DNA of 64,000 nt from Deltaproteobacteria bacterium (GTDB lineage Bacteria; Desulfobacterota; Deferrimicrobia; Deferrimicrobiales; Deferrimicrobiaceae), in contig JAKAHC010000001.1 of NCBI GenBank assembly GCA_021815305.1, forward strand, positions 310,001 through 374,000. Direction: 5' to 3'. Shown one piece after another: positions 26,775-41,490 of this stretch. The first letter of the stretch is position 1. Every line of letters begins with the position of its first letter. The position numbers were made by a program, and so were the translations under genes. The notes below the pieces were generated by a model. The model was given only the letters and a program-made list of their open reading frames with translations. It did not search any database and was not told where the DNA came from.

Positions 26775-29357
<2,583 letters not shown>

Positions 29358-29447: not shown

Positions 29448-30908
29448 TTATTTGTTCTTCACCGCGAGGAACAGCCGTCCCTCGGACCGCTGGACGAGGA
29501 ACAGCACGACCTTGTCGCTCTTGAACTTCTTCATCAGCCTGGAGAACTCGACCGTGTTCGGGACCGGCTGCTGGTTGATCCGGAGGACGACGTCCCCTTC
29601 CTGGAATCCCGCCTCGTCCGCCGGGCTGCCGCCGTCCACAGAGGTTACGATGACGCCCTTGACGTCCTTGATCCCGAGGCGCTGGGCCATCGCGGGCGTG
29701 AGGTCCTGGACCGTCAGCCCCAACCCCTTCGAAAGGTCGGAGGCGCTTGCCCGTTCGGACTTCGTCCCCTCCATCTCGGCGATGGTCACGGGGATCGTGA
29801 GTTCCTTCCCGTCCCGGTACACCTTGATGTCCACCTTCTTCCCGGGAGAGGTGGCGGCCACCATGGACGGAAGGTCGTGCTGGTCTTTCACGTCCTTGCC
29901 GTCATACGAGACGATCACGTCTCCCGACCGGATCCCCGCCTTCGCGGCCGGCCCGTCCTTCGTGACGTCGGACACCAGCGCGCCCTGCTTGCCGGGAATG
30001 CCCAGCCCCTGGGCGACCTCGGGGGAGAGCGGCTGGATATAGACTCCCAGCCATCCGCGGACCACTTTCCCCTTCTTCAACTGGCCCAGGATCGACTTGG
30101 CGAGGTTGATGGGCGTTGCAAAGCCGATCCCCTGCCCGCCCTGGATGATCGCGGTGTTGATGCCCTCGACTTCCCCCTGCAGGTTGAACAGGGGGCCTCC
30201 GGAATTCCCGGGGTTGATCGACGCGTCGGTCTGGATGAAATCGTCATACGGCCCCGACCCGATGATCCGGCCCTTTGCGCTGACGATCCCCGCCGTTACC
30301 GTGTGACCCAGTCCGAACGGGTTGCCGATGGCGATCACCCATTCTCCCACCTCGAGTTTGTCGGAGTCTCCCAGCTTGACGAAGGGGAGTTGCCTGTGCG
30401 CGTCGATCTTGATCAGGGCGATGTCCGTCTTGGGGTCGGTCCCGATCACCTTGGCCTTGTAATCCTCCTTGTCCAGAAGCGTAACGGTGATCGCGTCCGC
30501 CTTCTCCACCACGTGGTTGTTCGTAAGGATGTAGCCGTCGGGGGAGATGATGAACCCGGACCCCAGCGACCTGCGTTTCTGCTCCTTCGGCATGCGGCCG
30601 AAGAAGTTGTGGAAGAACTGCTCGAACGGATCCTGCGGCCCCATGGGACTGCGGAACTGCGGGTGATCGAACTTGACCACCTGGGTCGTGGAGATGTTCA
30701 CCACCGCCGGAGTCACCGCCTTCACGAGTTGCGGGATCTCCATCAGGGGGTACGACCGTTGACCCGCCGCGGCGGACGCAGGGGATGGTTTGCCCTTTCC
30801 TCCGGAGGACGCCCGGCCGAGGGGTGAAATGTTGAGCCCCGCGGAAATGAGCACTCCGGCGGCGACCGCCGCGAGCACGAGCACCAATACTCTGCTTTTG
30901 CGAATCAC
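29448..30908 (-). CDS. htrA: HtrA/DegP-type periplasmic serine protease
   Basis: 486 residues with an N-terminal signal or anchor (residues 6-26). The trypsin-like domain has the triad His in LTNNHVVEKAD, Asp in DPKTDIALIKID and Ser in NPGNSGGPLFN. Two PDZ domains follow, beginning near VRGWLGVYIQPLSP and LSKGLGLTVQDLTP. It degrades or refolds damaged envelope proteins. The GTG start overlaps the stop of the DUF1844 gene by 4 bases. It lies between DUF1844 and clpB in the stress island. Confidence 0.95.
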   Translation of the reverse strand: MIRKSRVLVLVLAAVAAGVLISAGLNISPLGRASSGGKGKPSPASAAAGQRSYPLMEIPQLVKAVTPAVVNISTTQVVKFDHPQFRSPMGPQDPFEQFFHNFFGRMPKEQKRRSLGSGFIISPDGYILTNNHVVEKADAITVTLLDKEDYKAKVIGTDPKTDIALIKIDAHRQLPFVKLGDSDKLEVGEWVIAIGNPFGLGHTVTAGIVSAKGRIIGSGPYDDFIQTDASINPGNSGGPLFNLQGEVEGINTAIIQGGQGIGFATPINLAKSILGQLKKGKVVRGWLGVYIQPLSPEVAQGLGIPGKQGALVSDVTKDGPAAKAGIRSGDVIVSYDGKDVKDQHDLPSMVAATSPGKKVDIKVYRDGKELTIPVTIAEMEGTKSERASASDLSKGLGLTVQDLTPAMAQRLGIKDVKGVIVTSVDGGSPADEAGFQEGDVVLRINQQPVPNTVEFSRLMKKFKSDKVVLFLVQRSEGRLFLAVKNK

Positions 30909-31441
30909 CTGTTGCCTCCTTTTCTTTCCTGGCCGGTCGGCGGCGCATTCACCAGCGCCATGTATCCCATGCGGAGGTGGTACAACCCTTCCCGCAGAAC
31001 TTCCTCCTCTTCCTTCGCCAGGTTGCCCTTCGTCTTTTCCTGGAGGATGCCGAGCAGGTCGATTGCGTCCTTGGCGGCCGGCAGGTCCACCGGAGAGCGC
31101 TTCCCGTCCGGGCCCTGGATCATTCCGAGATTCACCATCGCTCCCAGCTGCAGGGATTCCACGAGATCGAGGAATTGCGGCTCCCCTACCCGGGGAAGGG
31201 ACTTCCCCCGCCCCTTTCCCCCTTCGACGCCTCCGGCGTCCCTCCGGTTCCCTTCTTTTGCAATCCCGGGCGGTATTTCGCTTCCCGGACCCTCCGGACC
31301 GCCCCCGCCCGGAGCCTGCGGAGGCTTTTCCCCGGGAGGCGCCGCCGGCGGAGGCCCCGGAGAAGGAGGCGGAACGGGCTCCTCCTCCCGGCCCCGGCGG
31401 TCGATCACCCGGAACCCCTTGTCGTCCTTGTCGGCAGACAT
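30905..31441 (-). CDS. DUF1844 domain protein
   Basis: 178 residues. The first 85 are proline-, glycine- and glutamate-rich (PPPSPGPPPAAPPGEKPP) and likely disordered. The C-terminal DUF1844 domain reads PQFLDLVESLQLGAMVNLGM, then DLPAAKDAIDLLGILQEKT and EEEEVLREGLYHLRMGYM. The family has no established function and is common in deltaproteobacteria, where it tends to sit near conserved housekeeping genes. The ATG is joined to the ClpA-like stop as TGATG and its own stop overlaps htrA, so it is translationally coupled on both sides. Confidence 0.8.
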   Translation of the reverse strand: MSADKDDKGFRVIDRRGREEEPVPPPSPGPPPAAPPGEKPPQAPGGGGPEGPGSEIPPGIAKEGNRRDAGGVEGGKGRGKSLPRVGEPQFLDLVESLQLGAMVNLGMIQGPDGKRSPVDLPAAKDAIDLLGILQEKTKGNLAKEEEEVLREGLYHLRMGYMALVNAPPTGQERKGGNR

Positions 31442-33711
31442 CAGACCGGCACCTTCTGCGTGATCACGACCGGCTCCCCCTCGACCTCGTCGACCAGGAA
31501 GTGGTCGGATTCCCTCCACTTCAGCGTGACGGGCATCTTCACCTTCTCGTCGATGCCCCGCTTGAGGAACCTGGCGCCGTACTTGACGGAGAAGCCCGCG
31601 CGCGAAAGCGAGGAAACCGCGGACTCGGTGTAGACGAGGGTCTTCCCGTGGGCGGCCATCATCTTCCCGATGGAATCGAGATAGAGCGCGGCGATCCGGC
31701 GGACCTCGTCGAACGCAAGCGGCGTGAAGACGATGACGTCGTCCAGGCGGTTGATGAACTCCGGCGTGAACCGGTTTTCCGCCGCCTTCAGCACCGCCTT
31801 GCGCACCGGTTCGAAGTCGTCCGTGCCGGTCCCGAACCCCATCGGCCGGGTGAGCCGGGAGAGCTCCTCCGCCCCGAGGTTGCTGGTCATGATGATGATC
31901 GTGTCGGAGAAATACACTTTCTTCCCGCGCCCGTCGGTCAGCCACCCTTCATCGAAGGCCTGGAGGAAGAGGTTGTGGACGTACGTGTCCGCCTTCTCGA
32001 TCTCGTCGAGCAGCACGACGCTGTAAGGGTTGTCCTTCACCTGGTTCGTAAGGATCCCCCCCCGCTCGGACCCCACGATCCCGCGGGGCATCCCGATGAG
32101 TTTGTCCACCGCCAGCGCACCGTCCCGATACTCGGACATGTCGACGCGGATCAACTGCCGGTCGTCCCCGAAGAGGTACTCCGCGAGGGCCTTCGCCATC
32201 TCCGTCTTTCCCACCCCGGTCGGCCCGAGGAAAAGGAGGACGCCGTCCGGCCGGTAGATGTTCGCCTTGAGCGGCCCCTTGTTCATCCGCAGGGACTTGG
32301 CCATCGCGGAGATGGCCTCCTTCTGCCCGACCACGCGCCGGGAGATGCGCTCCTCGATGTCCCGAAACCGCTCGATCACGTCGCGGCGGACGATGTCCTG
32401 GGGGTTCTTCGTTTCGTTCGAGATGACCTCGAGGACGTCCCTCGCCTTTACCGTCTTCTCCTCGTCCCCCCGGATCTCCACGCGGACGCACGCCGTGTCG
32501 ATCCAGTTGATCACCTTGTCGGGGAGCCGCAGCGACCGGGCGTACCGCTCGGACATGTCGAGCGCGAAGTCGATCGCCTCGTCCTGGACCTCCACCCCGT
32601 AGTTCGCCTCGAGGCGCGGCTTGAGCCCCTGGAGGATCTCCCGCGTCTCGTCCACGGTCGGCTCGCCGACCTTGACGACGCGGAACCGGCGCGCGAGGGC
32701 CTCGTCCTCCTGCACGATCTCCTTGTATTCCGTGCCCGTGGTCGCTCCGATGATCTGCACCTCTCCCCGCGCCAGGGCGGACTTGAAGATGTTCGCGGCG
32801 TCCGACGGGACGCCCATGGCCGAGCCCGCCCCCACCAGCGTGTGGGCCTCGTCGATGAACAGGATGATGTTCTTGCGCTCCTTGACCTCGGCGATCACCT
32901 TCTCGATGCGGTCCTCGAACATCCCGCGGAAGACGGTCCCCGCAACCACCGTGTTCATCTGGAGATTCACCACGTGGTGTCCCCGGAGCCGTTCCGGCAC
33001 CCGGTGCGGTTCGTACTCCAGCCGCATCGCGAGCCCCTCGACCACGGCGGTCTTCCCCACCCCGGGGTCGCCCAGGATCATCACGGAGTTGCACCGGTCC
33101 TTGTGGCACAGATACTCGACGATCTGGTCGATCTCGGCCTCCCGGCCGATGATCGGCGGGATCTTCCCCTCGCGGGCGAGGAGGTTCAGGTTGACGGCGA
33201 AGGCCCGGAGATTTCCCGGAAGCTCGTACCGCTTCCTGTACTCCTCGACCTTCTCCTCCCGGCTTCGAAGCTGCGCGGAGAACCGGGAGAGAGCGACGGA
33301 AGGGTCCACACCGTAGTTCTTGAGGATCCGGGCGGGGATGGAGTGCACCTCGTGGAAGATGCCGAGGAACAGGTCGGCGGCGTCGATCTCGGAGCGCCGG
33401 TTGCGCTGCGCCGTTTCCCACGCCACCCGGAACACCTGCTTGGTGGCCGGCGGCACCTTCAGGCCCACGCCGAGGTACTGCCGGGAGATGTTGAGGTGCT
33501 CGTTGACCGAATACAGCACCGCCTCGACGTTGAGGCCGATGGAGGCCATGAGGTCGTGGAACAGCGCCTTCTCCTGGTCGGCGAATGCGATGAACAGGTG
33601 CTCGAGCCCCAGGTAGTAATGGTGTCGCCTCTGGGACTCCTCGATCGAGGCGTTCAGCATCCGGTGACCGGATTCGGAAAGTTTTTCCCGGTAGAACGAT
33701 ATCTCCATCAT
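31441..33711 (-). CDS. ClpA/ClpC-like AAA+ unfoldase
   Basis: 756 residues with two AAA+ modules. The N-terminal Clp repeat domain (residues 1-150) has YYLGLEHLFIAFADQEKALF. Ring 1 has Walker A GDPGVGKTAVVEGLAMR and FIDEAHTLVGAG. Ring 2 has [20 protein letters not shown] and TSNLGAEELSRL. The long ClpB-type middle coiled coil is absent, so it is not a second ClpB. Where ClpA/ClpC carry the ClpP-binding loop (IGL/VGF), this has RPMGFGTG, so it may feed a ClpP peptidase that is not in this window. ATG 33711 was preferred over TTG 33723, which abuts the SD GAGGAG. Confidence 0.87.
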   Translation of the reverse strand: MMEISFYREKLSESGHRMLNASIEESQRRHHYYLGLEHLFIAFADQEKALFHDLMASIGLNVEAVLYSVNEHLNISRQYLGVGLKVPPATKQVFRVAWETAQRNRRSEIDAADLFLGIFHEVHSIPARILKNYGVDPSVALSRFSAQLRSREEKVEEYRKRYELPGNLRAFAVNLNLLAREGKIPPIIGREAEIDQIVEYLCHKDRCNSVMILGDPGVGKTAVVEGLAMRLEYEPHRVPERLRGHHVVNLQMNTVVAGTVFRGMFEDRIEKVIAEVKERKNIILFIDEAHTLVGAGSAMGVPSDAANIFKSALARGEVQIIGATTGTEYKEIVQEDEALARRFRVVKVGEPTVDETREILQGLKPRLEANYGVEVQDEAIDFALDMSERYARSLRLPDKVINWIDTACVRVEIRGDEEKTVKARDVLEVISNETKNPQDIVRRDVIERFRDIEERISRRVVGQKEAISAMAKSLRMNKGPLKANIYRPDGVLLFLGPTGVGKTEMAKALAEYLFGDDRQLIRVDMSEYRDGALAVDKLIGMPRGIVGSERGGILTNQVKDNPYSVVLLDEIEKADTYVHNLFLQAFDEGWLTDGRGKKVYFSDTIIIMTSNLGAEELSRLTRPMGFGTGTDDFEPVRKAVLKAAENRFTPEFINRLDDVIVFTPLAFDEVRRIAALYLDSIGKMMAAHGKTLVYTESAVSSLSRAGFSVKYGARFLKRGIDEKVKMPVTLKWRESDHFLVDEVEGEPVVITQKVPV

Positions 33712-33751
33712 CGGCGGTATCAACTCCTCGCCCCGGCGGGCCGATTCGCCC

Positions 33752-34606
33752 TCACCGGGAGATGCCCCGCATCGAAAGCAGGCGTTCGATCCTCTTCTCG
33801 ACGGGCGGATGGGTGCTGAACAGGCTCGCCATGCCTCCTCCCGCCAGCGGGCTCATGATGAACATGTGCGCCGTGGCCGGCGAGGCGTCCATCGGGATCT
33901 GCCGCGACCGCCCGGAGATCTTCTCCAGAGCGCGCGCCAGCGCCTCGGGTTTCCCGCAGAAACGCGCCCCCGTTTCGTCCGCCAGGTACTCGCGGGATCG
34001 GGAAACGGCCATCTGGACCAGCATCGCGCCCAGGGGGGCCAGGATCGCCATCACGAGGAGCTCGAGCCCTCCGCCCCCTTCCCGGTCGTTGCGGCTTCCC
34101 CCCCCGAAGACGGCGGCGAACCGCGCCATGTTGGCCAGCATCATGATCGCCCCCGCGAGGGTGGCCGCGACCGTGCCGACAAGGATGTCGCGGTTCCTGA
34201 CATGCGCCAGCTCGTGGGCGAGTACGCCCTCCAGTTCCTCCGGCGAAAGGATCCGCAGGATCCCTTCCGTTGCGGCCACCGCGGCGTGCTGCGGGTCGCG
34301 ACCCGTGGCGAATGCGTTGGGCGATTCCTCGGGGAGGATGTACACCTTCGGCATCGGCACCCCCGCCGCCACCGTCAGCCTGCGGACGATCCCGTAGAGC
34401 TGCGGCGCGTCGCTCTCGGAAATTTCCCGTGCGTTGTACATGCGCAGCACGATCTTGTCGGAAAACCAGTACGATCCCGCGTTCAGGGCGATCGCGAGTC
34501 CGAAGGCGACGACCATCCCGGACTGCCCCCCGACCGCGCGGCCCACCAGCAGAAACAGGGCCGTGAGGACCGCGAGCAGGAACGTCGTTTTCAAAGTGTT
34601 GGTCAT
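33752..34606 (-). CDS. htpX: M48-family membrane zinc metalloprotease HtpX
   Basis: 284 residues with membrane segments at about 8-25, 30-48, 145-168 and 180-200. The zinc motif [10 protein letters not shown] sits on the cytoplasmic side and the third zinc ligand Glu lies in [12 protein letters not shown]. HtpX degrades misfolded inner-membrane proteins and complements FtsH. It lies 45 bases after the DnaJ-like gene and 40 before the ClpA-like gene. Heat-shock control of htpX is known in enterobacteria and fits its place here. Confidence 0.94.
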
Positions 34607-34651: not shown

Positions 34652-35647
34652 TCAGTTCCATTGCCCCCGGAGATCCGGGTCCTCGTAGGCCGCGATGCGC
34701 TCCACAAGCGAAAGGAATTCCTCCGAACGGTCCTTCGGCACGGCCACATGCAGGATGACGTACTGGTCGCCCCGATCCACCGTCCCGGGCGTCCGGACCC
34801 CCTTCCCTTTCAGGCGGAGCTTCCGCCCGCTGGCGGATCCCGGCGGCACGGTCACGGTGACGGGACCGTCGATCGTGGGGACCTGGATCCTGGCGCCCTT
34901 GACCGCTTCGGAGAACCGGATCGGCGCATCGAGGAGGATGTCGTTCCCCTCCCGTCGAAAATACGGATGGGACAGCATCCGCAACTCCACGACGAGATCC
35001 CCGCTCTCCCCCGAAGCCGGCCGCTCCTCTCCCTTGGAGGGGACGCGGATCGTGGCGCCGTCCCGGGCGCCCGCGGGGATCTTGATCTTCACGCGATCTT
35101 CGGTTTCCGTCACGCCGCGGCCGAAACAGGCGGGACATCCCCTGCGGCCCGTCCGGCCGGTTCCCCCGCACTGCGCGCACGTTCTGGGCCGATGGAAACG
35201 GATCTCCCGGATCCCGCCGCGGACCATGTCGAGGAAGTCCACGGGAAGCTCCACGTGGATGTCGCTTCCCCGGCCGCGGGGGTGGAATCCCGCCCCCTCG
35301 CCGCCGAAGAGATTCCCGAAGAGGTCCCCCAGGTCGAACGCCTCCGCCCGCGCCCCTCCCGGGGAAAACCCTGCGGGGCCCGCATCCCCCGCTCCGAAGG
35401 GGCCGCCCCGGAAACCTCCGGAGAACGCTCCCTTGCGGATACCGTCGTACTCCTCCCGCTTCTTCCTGTCGCGCAGGACCTCGTGCGCCTCGTTGACCTC
35501 CTTGAAGCGCGCCTCGGCCGTCCTGTCGCCCGGGTTGACGTCGGGATGGTGCTTCTTCGCCAACCGCCGGAACGCTTTCCGGATCTCTTCCGTGGAGGCG
35601 TTTTCCGGGACCCCCAGGATCTCGTAATAGTTTTTCCGCGGGTCCAT
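34652..35647 (-). CDS. DnaJ/CbpA-type co-chaperone with a half zinc finger
   Basis: 331 residues. The J domain (2-70) has the HPD motif in [11 protein letters not shown] glycine/phenylalanine-rich linker (about 72-125) follows, with FGNLFGGEG. The first C-terminal domain contains only two CxxC modules, CAQCGGTG and CPACFGRG, where class A DnaJ has four. Class B CbpA has none. The second substrate domain ends near [12 protein letters not shown]. It should stimulate the DnaK ATPase and deliver clients. ATG 35647 opens [20 protein letters not shown] strong hairpin separates it from the hsp20 gene upstream. Confidence 0.9.
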
Positions 35648-35672
35648 CGGTTCCCTCGCGGCCGTACCGCCT

Positions 35673-35708
35673 GCGGAGGGCCCGGGGGACGGCCCCCGCG
35701 CCCTCCGC
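35673..35708. repeat. Strong bipartite hairpin between hsp20 and dnaJ-like genes
   Basis: GCGGAGGGC pairs with GCCCTCCGC at the ends, and CGGGGG with CCCCCG inside, around loop ACGG; a single C-C mismatch separates the stems. The 36 bases fill half of the 76-base gap. There is no T run, so mRNA stabilisation or processing is more likely than termination. Confidence 0.65.
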
Positions 35709-35723
35709 AAACGTCCGGCGCAG

Positions 35724-36176
35724 CTATTTCACGGCCACCGGGATCTGCTTCTTCTTCGCCTGCTCCTTCTTGGGGAGGGTGAGCTCCAGGACCCCGTTCT
35801 TCAGGGTCGCGGAGATCCTTTCCTGGTCGACGGTGGCCGGCAGGGAGAACGACCGCTGGAACGTGCCGTAGGCCCGCTCGATCCTGTGGTAGTTCTCCTC
35901 CTTGACTTCCCTTTCGACCTTTCGCTCCCCCTTCAGGGTTAGCAGGCCGTCCTTGACCTCGATCCCGACCTGGTCCTTCGAAAGTCCCGGCACCTCGGCC
36001 TTGACGACGACGGCGTCGTTGTTCTCGTAGATGTCCACCGCCGGGGTCCACATCCCGGTGCCCAGCCCCTCCTCGCGCCCGCGGGTGCGGGCGAGGGTAT
36101 CCTCGAAGAGTTGATTCATCTTCTCCTGGATAGAGGAGAGATCCCGCATCGGGTCCCACCAACGGACGATCGCCAT
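35724..36176 (-). CDS. Small heat-shock protein, Hsp20/alpha-crystallin family (second copy)
   Basis: 150 residues that prevent aggregation by holding unfolded proteins for DnaK/ClpB. The N-terminal arm opens [20 protein letters not shown]. The alpha-crystallin domain (about 45-138) has [20 protein letters not shown], the NVNIxxG-like [16 protein letters not shown] motif, and ends [10 protein letters not shown]. It is a paralogue of the gene at 36250-36702, with near-identical starts. The C-terminal I-x-V-type anchor is IPV. A hairpin may mask its ribosome-binding site. Confidence 0.94.
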
Positions 36177-36249: not shown

Positions 36250-36702
36250 TCAGTTGACGTTCACCCGGATCTGCTTCGGCTTCGCATGCTCCCGTTTTCC
36301 GAGGCGCACCTCGAGGATGCCGTCCTTGATCTCCGCCCGGACCTTGTCGGGATCCACGGAATCGGGCAGGGAGAACGCCCTCTGGAAGGCTCCGTAGGCG
36401 CGCTCCACCCTGTGGTAGCTCTCCTCCTTGACCTCCTTCTCGAACTTCCTCTCGCCCCGCATCTGCAGCACGCCGCCGTCGACCTCGACGTGGACCTGCT
36501 CCTTCGTCACCCCCGGCACCTCCGCCTTGAGGACGATCTCCTGTTCCGTCTCGAAGATGTCCACGGCGGGAGACCAGGTCCCCGCGACGGGCTGCTCCCC
36601 GGGGAAGGGGGCAGTCCCGAAGGTTTCCTCGAAAACGCGGTTCATCCGGTTCTGCAACGTCGACAGCTCCCTTGTCGGGTCCCACCAGCGTACGATCGCC
36701 AT
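36250..36702 (-). CDS. Small heat-shock protein, Hsp20/alpha-crystallin family (first copy)
   Basis: 150 residues. The N-terminal arm opens [20 protein letters not shown], the alpha-crystallin domain has SPAVDIFETEQEIVLKAEVP and VRAEIKDGILEVRLGK, and the C-terminal anchor is IRVNVN. It and the copy at 35724-36176 are tandem duplicates separated by 73 bases. Paired small heat-shock proteins can form mixed oligomers or act at different steps; which applies is unknown. A GC-rich hairpin lies upstream at 36721-36749, but here the SD AAGGAGGAG is not obviously paired. It follows dnaK by 68 bases. Confidence 0.94.
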   Translation of the reverse strand: MAIVRWWDPTRELSTLQNRMNRVFEETFGTAPFPGEQPVAGTWSPAVDIFETEQEIVLKAEVPGVTKEQVHVEVDGGVLQMRGERKFEKEVKEESYHRVERAYGAFQRAFSLPDSVDPDKVRAEIKDGILEVRLGKREHAKPKQIRVNVN

Positions 36703-36770: not shown

Positions 36771-38672
36771 TTACTTCTTCGCGGGGTCCTCGTACTCCGC
36801 ATCGACCACGTCCCCCTCGGCCTCCTTGCCCTGCGCGGCCCCTCCCGCGGCCTCGCCTCCCGGCGGCGCGGACGTGGCCTGCTTGTACATGTGCTCCGCC
36901 AGCGCGTGCGACTCCTTGATCAGTTTCTCCGCGGCGGCCTTCAGGACCGCCTCGTCCTCGGACTTGAGCGCCTCCTTCGCCTCCGCGAGGGCCGCCTCGA
37001 CCTTCGATGCCGTTTCGGCGGGGACCTTGTCGCGGTTGTCCCGGAGCGTCTTCTCCGTGTTGTAGACCAGGGAGTCGAGGTGGTTTCGCGCCTCGATGGC
37101 CGCCTTGTGTTTCCGGTCCTCGGCGGCGTTCGCCTCGGCCTCCTTGACCATCTTGTCGATGTCGCTCTTGTCCAGCCCCGTCGACGCCGTGATGGTGATC
37201 TTCTGCTCCTTGCCCGTCCCCTTGTCCTTCGCGTTCACGTGGAGGATGCCGTTCGCATCGATGTCGAAGGTCACCTCCACCTGCGGCACGCCCCGGGGAG
37301 CGGGCGGAATCCCGTCGAGGTGGAACCTGCCCAGCGTCCGGTTGTGCGCCGCCATCTCGCGCTCCCCTTGCAGGACGTGGATCTCCACGCTCGGCTGGCT
37401 GTCCGACGCCGTGGTGAAGACCTCGCTCTTGCGCACGGGGATCGTGCTGTTCCGCTCGATGAGCTTCGTCATCACTCCACCCAGCGTCTCGATCCCCAGC
37501 GACAGGGGGGTCACGTCGAGGAGAAGCAGGTCCTTCACGTCGCCGCCCAGCACGCCCGCCTGCACCGCCGCGCCCGCAGCGACCACCTCGTCGGGGTTGA
37601 CGCCCTGGTGCGGGTCCTTGCCGAAGAACCCCTTCACCATCTCGACGACCCGCGGGATGCGGGTGGAGCCGCCCACCAGGACCACCTCGTCGATCTTCCC
37701 GACGGTAATCCCGGCGTCACGGACCGCCATTTCGCAGGGTTTCAACGTCCGGTCGAGGATGTCCTGCACCATCTGCTCGAACCTGGACCGCGAGAGCTTC
37801 AGCTGCAGGTGCTTCGGGCCGGTCGCGTCCGCCGTGATGAACGGGAGGCTGATCTCCGTCTCCATCACCGAGGACAGCTCGATCTTCGCCTTCTCCGCCC
37901 CCTCTTTCAGACGCTGCAGGGCGGTGCGGTCCTTCGAGAGGTCGATCCCCTGGTCCTTCCTGAACTCGGCGATGATCCACTCGATCAGGCGCTGGTCGAT
38001 GTTGTCGCCGCCCAGGTGCGTGTCCCCGTTGGTCGACTTCACCTCCACCACGTTGTCCCCCACCTCGAGGATGGAGATGTCGAAGGTGCCGCCGCCGAAG
38101 TCGAACACCGCGATCAGCTCGTTCTTCTTCCGGTCGAGGCCGTACGCCAGCGCCGCCGCCGTGGGCTCGTTGATGATCCGGAGAACCTCCAGTCCGGCGA
38201 TCGTCCCCGCGTCCTTGGTCGCCTGCCGCTGCGAATCGTTGAAATAGGCGGGAACGGTGATGACCGCCTGCTTCACCTCCTCGCCGAGGTACGTCTCCGC
38301 CGCCTTCTTCAGTTTCCCCAGGATCATGGCGGAGATCTGCTGCGGCGTGTACACCGTCCCCCCGGCGGAAACGCGGGCGTCCTGGTTCGGCCCCTGGACG
38401 ACCTTGTACGGCACGAGCCGGGTTTCCTCGGACACCTCGTCGTACCGGCGCCCCATGAACCGCTTGATGGAGAAGACCGTGTTCTCGGGGTTCAGCACCG
38501 CCTGTCGCTTGGCCACCTGTCCGACGAGGATCTGTCCGTCCTTGCCGAATCCCACCACCGACGGGGTCAGACGGCCCCCCTCCTCGTTGATGAGCACCTT
38601 GGGTTCGCTCCCCTCCATGACCGCGACCACGGAGTTCGTCGTCCCCAAATCGATCCCGATGATCTTCGCCAT
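36771..38672 (-). CDS. dnaK: Molecular chaperone DnaK (Hsp70)
   Basis: 633 residues. The ATPase domain has [63 protein letters not shown] and [10 protein letters not shown]. The linker is [21 protein letters not shown]; the substrate domain follows, with [19 protein letters not shown]. The tail ends [10 protein letters not shown]. It works with the DnaJ-like protein, ClpB and the small heat-shock proteins, all in this cluster. grpE is not in the window and no CIRCE element is seen upstream, so HrcA control is not supported here. Confidence 0.97.
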
Positions 38673-38694: not shown

Positions 38695-39084
38695 TCAAAT
38701 CGCTTCCAGCAATTTATCGATGAAACGGTACAGCGCCCTGCCGTCCACCGGTTTGGTCACCATCCCCACGGCCCCCGCCTCCAGCGCCCACATCCTCCGC
38801 TCCTTCCCGGCCTCCCTCGCGATGAGGACCACGGGGGTCCTTGCGGCGAGCTCCGCGATCCGCATCAGCGCGTCCAGCCCGCCCAGGGACGGTATGTCCA
38901 GGTCCACCACGGCGAGGTCGGCCGCCCCGGACGCAAGGCGTCGCAACCCCTCTGCGCCGTCGCTCCACAACTCCGGAAGCGCCCCCGCGTCCGAAAGCCA
39001 GCCGAGCATCGGGGCCACCTTCGCGAAGTCGTCCGCCATGGCGTCGGCGATCAGGACCACTCTGCGGGCCGTTTTCCTTGCCAC
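38695..39084 (-). CDS. Single-domain response regulator (receiver) upstream of dnaK
   Basis: 129 residues, one receiver domain and no output domain. The phospho-acceptor Asp is in [17 protein letters not shown], the conserved Thr/Ser region is TPVVLIARE, and the Lys is in GMVTKPVDG. The N-terminal acidic pocket is weak ([11 protein letters not shown] in place of the usual DDD), so phosphorylation may be altered. GTG 39084 has SD GGAGG 8 bases upstream and gives the standard domain length; an upstream ATG at 39159 has no SD. It lies 22 bases before dnaK, and a sigma-54 promoter candidate sits right in front. Confidence 0.75.
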
Positions 39085-39109
39085 TCCCTTGACCTCCGCC
39101 TTCGGATAA

Positions 39110-39126
39110 AACAAATCCCGTGCCAC
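39110..39126 (-). promoter_or_regulatory. Candidate sigma-54 promoter for receiver-dnaK operon
   Basis: On the minus strand GTGGCACGGGATTTGTT matches the sigma-54 consensus YTGGCACGRNNNTTGCW except for the first base and T in place of C in the -12 element. Spacing between the GG and the -12 G is correct. Transcription would start near 39099, about 15 bases before the GTG start. Confidence 0.5.
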
Positions 39127-39229
39127 TTTCAGGGAAGAGGGAGGTCTGCGGTAACACATCGTTTTTCAATAGGTTTTTCTGCTGCGATCGAGGACGTCTC
39201 CAGAAGGAACGGGTCAGGTGCGCCATTCT

Positions 39230-39252
39230 GGCAACGACGAATCCGCGTTGCC
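39230..39252. repeat. Inverted repeat, possible enhancer site for a sigma-54 activator
   Basis: GGCAACG and CGTTGCC are perfect complements around a 9-base spacer. The centre lies about 140 bases upstream of the predicted start of transcription, the usual distance for NtrC-type binding sites. It lies 23 bases beyond the stop codon of the activator gene; the lack of a T run argues against a terminator. Confidence 0.5.
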
Positions 39253-39274
39253 GTGCCAAAAAGGCAGGGAGAGA

Positions 39275-40645
39275 TCAGCCGATGCCGTACTCCTTCACTT
39301 TCCGGTGGAGGGTCCGCACACCGATGCCCAGGAGTTTCGCCGCATGGGTCTTGTTCCCCCCCGTCTTTCCGAGGGCGTCCCGGATGGCGTCCCGCTCGAT
39401 CTCCGTGAGCGTGCGGGAGGGGGGGAGCGGGATCGGCCCGGAGGCCGTCGGCGGAAGGACCGCATGCGTCACCTCCGGCGGAAGGTCTCCCGGTTCGATC
39501 GCATCCCCCTGCGAGACGAGGGTGGCGGTCTCCAGCGCATTGCGAAGCTGGCGCACGTTCCCGGGCCACCGGAAGGCGAGCATCGCCCTCAGGGCGGCGG
39601 GGGAGAGAACCTTCGGCGGCATGCCGTTCTCCTGCGCAATCCGCCCCAGGAAATGTTCGCACAGACGCGGGATGTCTTCCCTTCGGTCCCGCAACGGGGG
39701 AACGACGATGCCGAACACGTTCAGCCGGTAGAAGAGGTCCTCCCGGAACGCGTTCTCCTCCACGCGGGCCTTGAGGTCCCGGTTCGTCGCGGCGAGGATC
39801 CGCACGTCCACCCGGAGGACCTGGGAACCTCCCACCCGCATCACTTCCTTCTGCTCGATGGCGCGAAGCAGCTTCGCCTGGATTCCGGGGGAGACGTCCC
39901 CCACCTCGTCGAGGAACAGGGTGCCCCCCTCCGCGCTTTCGAGCTTGCCCGGGCGATCCCCCGTCGCCCCCGTGAACGCCCCCTTCTCGTAACCGAACAG
40001 CTCGGACTCGAGGAGCGCTTCGGGAATCGCCGCACAATTCAGCGGGAGGAAGGAGCGGTCCCTCCGGGGGCTCAGCCGGTGGATCGCCCGCGCCACCAGC
40101 TCTTTTCCCGTCCCGCTCTCCCCGGTGATCAGGACGTTCATCCTCGTGGGAGCGACCAGCCGGACCTTCTGGAGCACCTCCTCCATCGCCCGGGACGCGC
40201 CGACGATCCCTTCCACCCCCGTGGGGGAGCCCACCTCCTCGCGCAGCCGATCGATTTCCCTCTGCATCGCCCGCTCCTTGGCGGCGCGGAAGACGGCCGC
40301 CCGCAGGCGCGGGATCTCCACGGGCTTGAGAAGGAAATCGGAGGCGCCGGACCGGACGGCCTCCACGGCCCCCTCGACGGTGCCGTACGCGGTGAGGACG
40401 ACCACGGGAACGCCCGGGTGCGACTTCGTCACGTGACGCAGCACATCGAGGCCCGTCAGCCCCGGCATCCGCAGGTCGGTCACCACCACGTCCCCGCCTT
40501 CCGCCGAAAGCCGCGCAAGCCCCTCCCGCGGATCGGCGAAGGGGAAGACCTCGAACCCGTCGCGGCGCAGCGCCGCGGCGACGCTCGAAAGGCTGTCGGC
40601 GTCGTCGTCGAAGACGAAAACCCGCCCCTTCCCCTTCGCGGTCAC
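39275..40645 (-). CDS. NtrC-family sigma-54 activator next to the heat-shock cluster
   Basis: 456 residues. The receiver (1-120) has FVFDDDADS, phospho-Asp in VVTDLRMPGLTG and Lys in LLKPVEI. The AAA+ domain has Walker A GESGTGKELVARAIH, the sigma-54 loop EKGAFTGATG, GTLFLDEVGD and REDLFYRLNVFGIVVPPL. The Fis-type HTH is KTGGNKTHAAKLLGIGVRTL. GTG 40645 overlaps the stop of the kinase by 4 bases. By position it resembles HsfA of Myxococcus xanthus, an NtrC-like activator of the heat-shock gene lonD. That comparison is by context and not by alignment. Confidence 0.92.
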   Translation of the reverse strand: MTAKGKGRVFVFDDDADSLSSVAAALRRDGFEVFPFADPREGLARLSAEGGDVVVTDLRMPGLTGLDVLRHVTKSHPGVPVVVLTAYGTVEGAVEAVRSGASDFLLKPVEIPRLRAAVFRAAKERAMQREIDRLREEVGSPTGVEGIVGASRAMEEVLQKVRLVAPTRMNVLITGESGTGKELVARAIHRLSPRRDRSFLPLNCAAIPEALLESELFGYEKGAFTGATGDRPGKLESAEGGTLFLDEVGDVSPGIQAKLLRAIEQKEVMRVGGSQVLRVDVRILAATNRDLKARVEENAFREDLFYRLNVFGIVVPPLRDRREDIPRLCEHFLGRIAQENGMPPKVLSPAALRAMLAFRWPGNVRQLRNALETATLVSQGDAIEPGDLPPEVTHAVLPPTASGPIPLPPSRTLTEIERDAIRDALGKTGGNKTHAAKLLGIGVRTLHRKVKEYGIG

Positions 40646-41409
40646 CGCGGCGCCCCCGGGGGAAGCGCCAGCGGGAGCCGGCCGGGGAACATGGCGCGGA
40701 ACTGGGACTCGAACGGCAGCGAGACGGTCACGATCGTGCCGTGCCCTTCGCGGCTGCGGAGGGATACGGTCCCGCCGTGCTGATGGACGATCTGCCGGAC
40801 GATGGGGAGCCCCAGCCCGCTGCCGTTCTTGCGGGTCGTGTAGAAGAGGCGGAAGATCTGCCGGCGCTCCGCCCGGGGAATTCCCCTCCCGTTGTCCTGG
40901 ATCCGCGCGAAGGGACGCCCCGCCCGCACCCCGGTGGTCACGCGGATCGTTTTCCCCTCCTTGTCCAGCGCTTCCTGGGCGTTCAGCAGCAGGTTGAGCA
41001 GCGCCTGTTTGAGCTGCCTCTCGTCGGCGAGCACCGGCAGCGGCGTGGGATGGATCCGCGTCCTCAGAACGATCCCGTGGTAGGAGAGGTCGACTTCGAG
41101 GAAGCGCAGCGTCTCGGCGACGATCCGGTTCAGGTCCACCATCGTCAGCTCGATCGCCTGCGGCCGCGCGAAGCGCAGGAAACCGGAAAGCGTTTCGTTC
41201 AGGCGCTGCGTGACCTTGAGGTTCGCGCGGGCAAGGGAGAGGAGCTCCCCCTTCTGGGGGACGGCTTCGGGGGAGATCTCGGAGAGCATCTCCTCGAGGA
41301 GTTGCCCGTTGATGTAGAGGGAGTTCAACGGGTTGCGGATCTCGTGGGCCAGGCCCGCCGCGACCGCGCCCAGATCCTCGAGCTTTTTCCGTCTCCTCGT
41401 GGCCGGCAC
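40642..41409 (-). CDS. Soluble histidine kinase core without a sensor domain
   Basis: 255 residues containing only HisKA and HATPase_c. The phospho-acceptor His is in AAGLAHEIRNPLNSLYINGQ, the N box is LLNLLLNAQEALD, G1 is IQDNGRGIPR and G2 is GSGLGLPIVRQIV. The GTG start follows an in-frame TAA by only five codons, so no sensor domain can lie upstream in frame. Either the signal comes through a partner protein, or the gene has lost its sensor by truncation. It overlaps the NtrC-like gene by 4 bases and should be its cognate kinase. The tail is proline-rich. Confidence 0.85.
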   Translation of the reverse strand: MPATRRRKKLEDLGAVAAGLAHEIRNPLNSLYINGQLLEEMLSEISPEAVPQKGELLSLARANLKVTQRLNETLSGFLRFARPQAIELTMVDLNRIVAETLRFLEVDLSYHGIVLRTRIHPTPLPVLADERQLKQALLNLLLNAQEALDKEGKTIRVTTGVRAGRPFARIQDNGRGIPRAERRQIFRLFYTTRKNGSGLGLPIVRQIVHQHGGTVSLRSREGHGTIVTVSLPFESQFRAMFPGRLPLALPPGAPR

Positions 41410-41490
41410 GAGGACGATTCTACCTTATTCTCCCCATCCGCGCAGACTCCGAAAGCGTTGCCGGGGCGGGGATCCCCCGGTCCCCTGGGA

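Follow-up and report, generated by a model that had tools for sequence, protein, structure and literature searches.

The main bacterial Hsp70, DnaK, is usually held to be under the control of RpoH or of HrcA and its operator CIRCE (controlling inverted repeat of chaperone expression), and sigma-54 control of heat-shock genes is already known from other systems. In Myxococcus xanthus, the two-component pair HsfB/HsfA includes an NtrC-like regulator that activates the heat-shock gene lonD (PMC9109919). In Bacteroidota and Planctomycetota, dnaK, dnaJ, grpE, groEL and others are predicted to be enriched in sigma-54 regulons (PMC12316311); dnaK is not mentioned in the main text on the sigma-54 regulome of Desulfovibrio vulgaris (PMC4641369). 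Here, a window of 64,000 nt from a Deltaproteobacteria bacterium (assembly GCA_021815305.1, contig JAKAHC010000001.1, positions 310,001 to 374,000) contains a cluster led by dnaK that is very probably controlled through sigma-54 by a dedicated cytosolic two-component pair, with upstream palindromes as the putative activator sites. Enhancer-dependent control by an NtrC-type regulator had been proposed in an earlier note on this DNA, and it is supported by a promoter shared by all 23 readable leaders, a palindrome pair in 15 of these 23, a co-change between activator and palindromes, the lack of RpoH above its cut-off (0 of 24 genomes of the family) and the absence of CIRCE at this locus.

The predicted circuit resembles HsfBA in joining a two-component pair and an NtrC-like regulator to a heat-shock gene. 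In contrast, HsfB is a hybrid kinase, whereas the cluster's kinase is non-hybrid and sensor-less (HisKA and HATPase_c only); and HsfA also controls secondary-metabolite genes, whereas only a single convincing target was found in the genome here, comprising the only dnaK and a large cluster. The likeness to Chlamydia lies in a dnaK under a sigma-54 promoter without a typical heat-shock sigma factor; the chlamydial dnaK stands within the hrcA operon under CIRCE (PMC8762339), whereas the present dnaK stands outside it and carries no CIRCE. The enrichment in Bacteroidota and Planctomycetota is genome-scale, and neither a dedicated two-component pair nor a dnaK-led cluster is named in the consulted portions of that study. 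Within the open-licence literature of PubMed Central, no description of a dnaK-led cluster with a dedicated sigma-54 pair was found, and a search there for CIRCE, HrcA or RpoH in Deltaproteobacteria found nothing.

Promoter and upstream palindromes

The region before the receiver and dnaK genes contains the following elements.

39110-39125, minus strand: candidate sigma-54 promoter TGGCACGGGATTTGTT, seen in each of the 23 readable leaders, predicted transcription start at about 39099
39221-39233, no strand assigned: candidate activator site 2, TGCCAGAATGGCG (minus-strand reading), start 108 bp 5′ of the -24 element
39254-39266, no strand assigned: candidate activator site 1, TGCCTTTTTGGCA (minus-strand reading), start 141 bp 5′ of the -24 element
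39150-39185, no strand assigned: AT-rich block between the putative enhancer and the promoter, position kept (column profile of 22 promoter-anchored leaders)
39230-39252, no strand assigned: perfect inverted repeat GGCAACG-N9-CGTTGCC, overlapping site 2, not conserved

The sequence TGGCACGGGATTTGTT matches 11 of 12 consensus letters, with T for C at -12 (position 39111) as its sole mismatch. From this window by itself, the match is only suggestive; allowing one mismatch, the window holds 2 promoter matches versus an expectation of 0.38, a count of 2 or more being seen in 5 of 100 shuffles. Palindromes searched in the window alone give 4 matches with one mismatch versus 2.16 expected, and 16 of 100 shuffles reach 4, which is not above chance. 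Because the promoter signal is only mildly above chance here, comparison with relatives had to decide. A search with the DnaK N-terminus found matches in 94 of 99 genomes, and the 30 loci it returned were read. Leaders were readable in 23 genomes from 13 genera, comprising 21 of the 24 family genomes and two genomes of a second family (f2); G019, whose contig ends within the leader, G021, which has no dnaK match, and G022, a fragment, were left out.

Across these relatives, the sigma-54 candidate that had been placed right before receiver-dnaK is borne out at 39125-39110. In particular, the -24/-12 element is found in all 23 leaders, 12 of them scoring 11/12, nine 10/12 and two 9/12, while dinucleotide shuffles score at least 10 in 1.9% of cases and 9 in 15.8%, so the two 9/12 leaders would not stand alone. 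The GG and the G at -13 are present in 23 of 23 leaders; the constrained search demanded GG and TG, but an unconstrained search recovers the same site in 22 of 23 and mis-anchors L019. C at -12 occurs in none of the 23. The predicted mRNA leader is about 15 nt long and includes a GGAGG located 8 nt 5′ of the GTG at 39084, which is likely the true receiver start; the listed open reading frame begins at 39159, 5′ of the promoter, and was set aside in favor of the GTG with its GGAGG and the part of the protein conserved in relatives. One genome (L012, G006) lacks the receiver gene; its dnaK is directly preceded by this promoter, and both palindromes are kept.

A sigma-70 or sigma-32-like promoter inside the AT-rich block could instead drive these genes, leaving the -24/-12 element as a relic. 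The block's position is kept, and a motif sampler applied to it exceeds its shuffles (141.9 versus at most 113.7 at width 10; 148.4 versus at most 138.2 at width 13), these being simple letter shuffles with fewer restarts. However, the resulting motif is A-rich with no clear identity, so that neither a conserved sigma-70 motif nor an IHF motif was accepted, and by eye it has no regular -10 partner. Moreover, no sigma-70-type site was found at 39000-39300 in the genome carrying the window (the host genome), no RpoH exceeds its cut-off, and all 23 leaders keep the -24/-12 element; such a promoter is highly improbable. The block is possibly an IHF-like bending region.

The enhancer is likely the palindrome pair at 39254-39266 and 39221-39233. 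Each copy is 13 bp long, with a consensus of TGYCA-N3-TGRCA (the TGCCA-N3-TGGCA type), and enhancer sites are usually located about 100-150 bp upstream. With a threshold of at least 17 of 20 matches and a spacing of 30-36, the pair is present in 15 of 23 leaders, host included, whereas 200 rounds of shuffling yielded 0.005 on average and never more than 1. These figures overstate the case because the consensus was taken by eye from the same leaders before scoring and because the leaders share ancestry. The distance from the start of the first copy to the -24 element is 141-143 bp in 14 of the 15 pair-bearing leaders and 152 bp in L014. Other leaders show partial forms: L022 and L030, both from f2, have two copies at spacings of 19 and 18; L027 has two copies at 16/20; L018 has a single perfect copy; and L039 has a single copy at 8/10, with a similar one seen by eye in L019.

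The perfect repeat at 39230-39252 had been proposed as the activator site. The repeat itself is real, but among 127 loci compared its exact copies are found only in five loci of the host genome, so that it is no conserved enhancer and was rejected as one. When both proposed sites were checked for conservation, the -24/-12 element was kept in all 23 leaders and the repeat was not.

The two-component pair and its predicted targets

The genes that flank this region, and a candidate promoter of the pair, are listed here.

41417-41422, minus strand: candidate sigma-70-type -10 hexamer TAGAAT, located 7 nt 5′ of the kinase GTG (start 41409)
40642-41409, minus strand: histidine kinase of 255 aa, with HisKA (PF00512) and HATPase (PF02518) only
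39275-40645, minus strand: NtrC-type response regulator, with a receiver (PF00072), a sigma-54 activation AAA+ domain (PF00158) bearing GAFTGA, and a Fis-type helix-turn-helix (PF02954)
38695-39084, minus strand: receiver-only protein (PF00072, matched on the longer open reading frame) with a degenerate active site

Activator orthologs (E ≤ 1e-120) are present in 21 of the 24 family genomes, and the three genomes without one are 61-75% complete. GAFTGA is found in 18 of the 21, those readable by script, and the recognition helix is likewise readable in 18 of 21 (L078, L089 and L097 were unmatched by the script). The helix carries R in G-I-[GA]-x-R-T in 16 of these 18; in the two genomes of genus g10 it reads GIG[VI]ATLHRK, with R replaced by A, and GN[KR]T becomes GNKK. 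Among the 18 readable helices, this change is confined to the same two g10 genomes whose leaders (L015 and L017) carry the changed motifs TATCAAAATGATA and GATCAAAATGATA, at 140 and 139 bp. The co-change links the predicted activator to its candidate palindromes.

The palindromes by themselves do not name the protein that binds them, and they could serve some other regulator, such as a repressor, as operators, while the neighboring activator acts elsewhere. Such an assignment is very improbable, as the R-to-A change occurs in exactly the two of 18 helices whose genomes have changed palindromes, the sites lie at the usual enhancer distance, and the pair pattern occurs in the host genome at dnaK and only once elsewhere (C5:108205), the reversed control also giving one hit. 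With the single further occurrence equaled by the control, the regulator looks dedicated, and C5:108205 was not accepted as a further target; no other convincing one emerged. At 11 other sigma-54-like sites, ten have no palindrome of at least 8/10, and L118 has one at 8/10. As side observations, a sigma-54-like TGGCACGAAACTTGTT without palindromes lies about 230-335 bp before a Clp-type gene in L112 (G003:C15), and genera g5 and g6 have TGGCACGCTTCTTG[TA]T ahead of a small uncharacterized protein (L119, L120 and L106, around the site at 1501), with no dnaK-type palindromes within the 260 bases upstream of these sites.

The kinase and activator may also have transcription of their own. Of 20 aligned loci, host included, 19 have a TANAAT motif located 6-7 nt 5′ of the kinase GTG, and L081 has TAATAT. 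This arrangement suggests a sigma-70-type promoter and a leaderless mRNA for the pair. In the 20 loci, the kinase H-box lies about 20 residues past the aligned GTG start, and several open frames extend upstream. Autoregulation through the same palindromes was considered and rejected: of 22 loci tried, two contain no kinase, and the 20 scored show no palindrome of at least 9/10 before the kinase, the pre-kinase stretch being short in some.

Constitutive read-through from this kinase-activator operon could thus supply the chaperone transcript, with the sigma-54 site adding little. The genes are on the same strand, 190 bp separate the activator stop from the receiver start, no terminator-like site was found at 39000-39300, and the -10-like hexamer before the kinase is conserved. 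However, the promoter and both palindromes still precede receiver-dnaK in G018 and G003, where the activator is on a different contig from dnaK, and in G008 and G014, where it lies about 5 and 8 kb upstream. Since these elements are kept in four genomes without an adjacent activator gene, they belong to the chaperone unit, and read-through is unlikely to be the main source there; as a general explanation, it is improbable.

Under sigma-54 control by the dedicated pair, the sensor-less kinase would phosphorylate the NtrC-type activator, which would bind the two TGCCA-N3-TGGCA palindromes about 108 and 141 bp upstream, as their conservation and the helix co-change indicate, loop across the AT-rich block and open sigma-54 RNA polymerase at 39125-39110. 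The transcript is predicted to begin at about 39099 and to cover the receiver gene and dnaK, probably continuing as a single transcript through clpB. HrcA and CIRCE would separately govern hrcA-grpE-dnaJ and groESL, RpoH being absent, and the non-C base at -12 may permit some activator-independent basal transcription, which would be useful because this dnaK is the only one found.

The receiver-only protein has a likely phospho-acceptor Asp in 13 of 13 aligned sequences and a Lys (11 sequences of the window's family, f1) or Arg (two of f2); in that alignment, at least one acidic residue of the canonical active-site pair is missing. Speculatively, its role may be in feedback or as an adaptor.

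Several points weigh against sigma-54 control by this pair. Within the window alone, neither promoter nor palindromes are clearly above chance, and 8 of 23 leaders fall under the pair threshold. The leaders used for consensus and scoring share descent and are not independent events, L026 and L040 being nearly identical, and the helix co-change is one event in one genus. Pfam recognizes no sensor domain in the kinase, and the lack of a terminator-like site makes read-through from the kinase-activator transcript possible. Further, heat lowered rpoN expression in Chlamydia (PMC8762339).

The dnaK cluster and the separate HrcA circuit

From position 41409 to 26775, a 14.6-kb minus-strand run encodes the histidine kinase, the NtrC-type activator, the receiver-only protein, DnaK, two Hsp20 proteins, DnaJ, an M48 protease, a Clp ATPase, a DUF1844 protein, DegP and then ClpB. 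The kinase and activator had been described as heading a single-direction proteostasis run, and the open reading frames and Pfam domains agree. Between promoter and clpB, the genes are co-directional with intergenic gaps of at most 90 bp.

36771-38672, minus strand: DnaK of 633 aa, named from its sequence, without a Pfam run
36250-36702, minus strand: first Hsp20 (PF00011)
35724-36176, minus strand: second Hsp20 (PF00011)
34652-35710, minus strand: DnaJ-type co-chaperone, with a J domain and DnaJ_C and no zinc-finger family match
33752-34606, minus strand: M48 metalloprotease (PF01435), presumably HtpX-like
31441-33723, minus strand: Clp-type AAA+ ATPase, with Clp_N, AAA_2 and ClpB_D2-small
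30905-31441, minus strand: DUF1844 protein (PF08899, matched on the open reading frame 30905-31945), start at about 31441 placed by eye
29448-30908, minus strand: DegP/HtrA-type protease with PDZ domains, by domain matches
26775-29357, minus strand: ClpB disaggregase of 860 aa, named by eye from its open reading frame and translation, without a Pfam run; position kept in five long relative regions

The order kinase-activator-receiver-dnaK is kept in 8 of 8 larger regions (L042-L049), which were chosen for an adjacent activator. The cluster reaches ClpB in all five regions that are long enough (L042-L046, of which L044 is from f2); L042 and L044 have one Hsp20 in place of two, and in L048 the run reaches DegP before the contig ends. 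In eight phylum-level loci (L031-L038), the only ones viewed at that level, inspection by eye of the 1-1.5 kb preceding dnaK revealed no recognizable activator or receiver. A search of named genomes gave 20 loci, comprising 11 orthologs of at least 53% identity and 9 other receivers of at most 34%. By label, ten orthologs are from Deltaproteobacteria metagenome-assembled genomes (CSP1-8, SKS1.bin8 and others) and one from Syntrophorhabdaceae (Nt197P3bin122). Because the consulted part of PMC9386147 places Nt197P3bin122 in candidate phylum MBNT15 (Ca. Deferrimicrobiota), the compared family is probably that clade.

The host genome (2.77 Mb, 97% complete) has one rpoN match and one hrcA match, and the window's dnaK encodes the only DnaK found, the second match covering merely 103 residues at 27% identity. 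A second dnaK was seen in G014 (L041, G014:C60), with 73% identity over the N-terminal 120 residues. Using the TIGR02392 cut-off of 323 bits, no RpoH is found in the host genome, where the single match is an RpoD-like frame of 601 aa, or in any of the 24 family genomes, where the best match reaches 143 bits and the matches are mostly RpoD-like frames of about 600 aa.

A whole-genome scan for CIRCE, allowing at most 3 mismatches, finds exactly two sites in the host genome, both perfect, and none at the dnaK locus. One lies about 20 bp 5′ of the listed hrcA start, in an hrcA-grpE-dnaJ run without dnaK, and the other precedes groES-groEL (GrpE, DnaJ, GroES and GroEL being named by eye). The hrcA-grpE-dnaJ run, at 8335-11148 of L006 (G000:C6), has merely a few bases between grpE and dnaJ, and its DnaJ has four CXXCXGXG-like repeats by eye, whereas the DnaJ of the dnaK cluster has no zinc-finger match. 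As grpE adjoins dnaJ, the classical hrcA-grpE-dnaK-dnaJ order is not found; because this CIRCE-bearing run has no dnaK and the only dnaK is elsewhere, dnaK sits outside the hrcA operon. Overall, dnaK has left its usual place and now heads a large proteostasis cluster.

CIRCE is found in 22 of the 24 family genomes (two sites in 17, one in 4 and three in 1), and in these 22 it is always on a different contig from dnaK or hundreds of kb away; the genes behind CIRCE were identified in the host genome only. The earlier note saw no CIRCE and no clear sigma-32 site at dnaK; the absence of CIRCE there holds, and no sigma factor exceeds the RpoH cut-off. The broader suggestion of independence from both HrcA and sigma-32 stands for sigma-32, with RpoH in 0 of 24 genomes, and in its HrcA part for the dnaK cluster only, because hrcA-grpE-dnaJ and groESL carry CIRCE.

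The base at -12 and the meaning of the proposed circuit

At -12, 13 of the 23 leaders have T, 5 have A, 5 have G and none has C. According to PMC4551910, 96% of sigma-54 promoters carry the conserved C at -12, which restrains basal transcription, and in Escherichia coli in vivo bypass is correlated with weaker conservation of this C. A scan for TGGCACG-N4-TTG-N-W, summed over the 24 family genomes, finds 66 sites versus 21 for the reversed control; 11 are dnaK leaders, and the other 55 have at -12 C in 22 (all reading TTGCT), T in 15, A in 13 and G in 5. C is therefore found in 0 of 23 dnaK leaders versus 22 of 55 other sites (Fisher p = 0.00017, a figure that ignores relatedness and a set of 55 that includes chance matches). 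Among 15 C sites with surroundings fetched, nine precede, by eye, genes of pilin type (4), AmtB type (2) or FliA-like type (3), and at least one (L125) seems to be a chance occurrence within coding sequence. The non-C base is not unique to dnaK, because other non-C sites exist, for example before a FliL-like gene (L116).

The non-C base possibly gives a leaky basal promoter for the sole DnaK. As a tentative extension, the imperfect promoter may have been kept because it sustains a basal, maybe temperature-raised, activator-independent level of chaperones, which the two-component pair would raise when proteins are damaged; DnaK or the degenerate receiver would then exert feedback on the pair. 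The closest likeness is to the E. coli bypass promoters, where a non-C base at -12 is tied to low activator-independent transcription, and where, with a region-I deletion form of sigma-54, a temperature of 42 °C raised bypass at glnAp2 four-fold (PMC4551910). In contrast to those cases, which in the consulted part of that paper use sigma-54 without region I, with little bypass in vivo overall, the present promoter is natural and its non-C base is kept across 13 genera. As that bypass was seen with the region-I-less form and is slight in vivo, strong leakage with normal sigma-54 is disfavored.

The lack of C at -12 in any leader provides a concrete test for natural use of sigma-54 bypass transcription; if the extension were true, such transcription would be a built-in heat response in place of RpoH. 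Overall, in a little-known, uncultured lineage, the only DnaK, the small heat-shock proteins, ClpB and quality-control proteases appear to answer to sigma-54 and a dedicated two-component pair, with GrpE, DnaJ and GroESL left to HrcA, so that one chaperone machine would be split between two circuits, DnaK in one and GrpE and DnaJ in the other.

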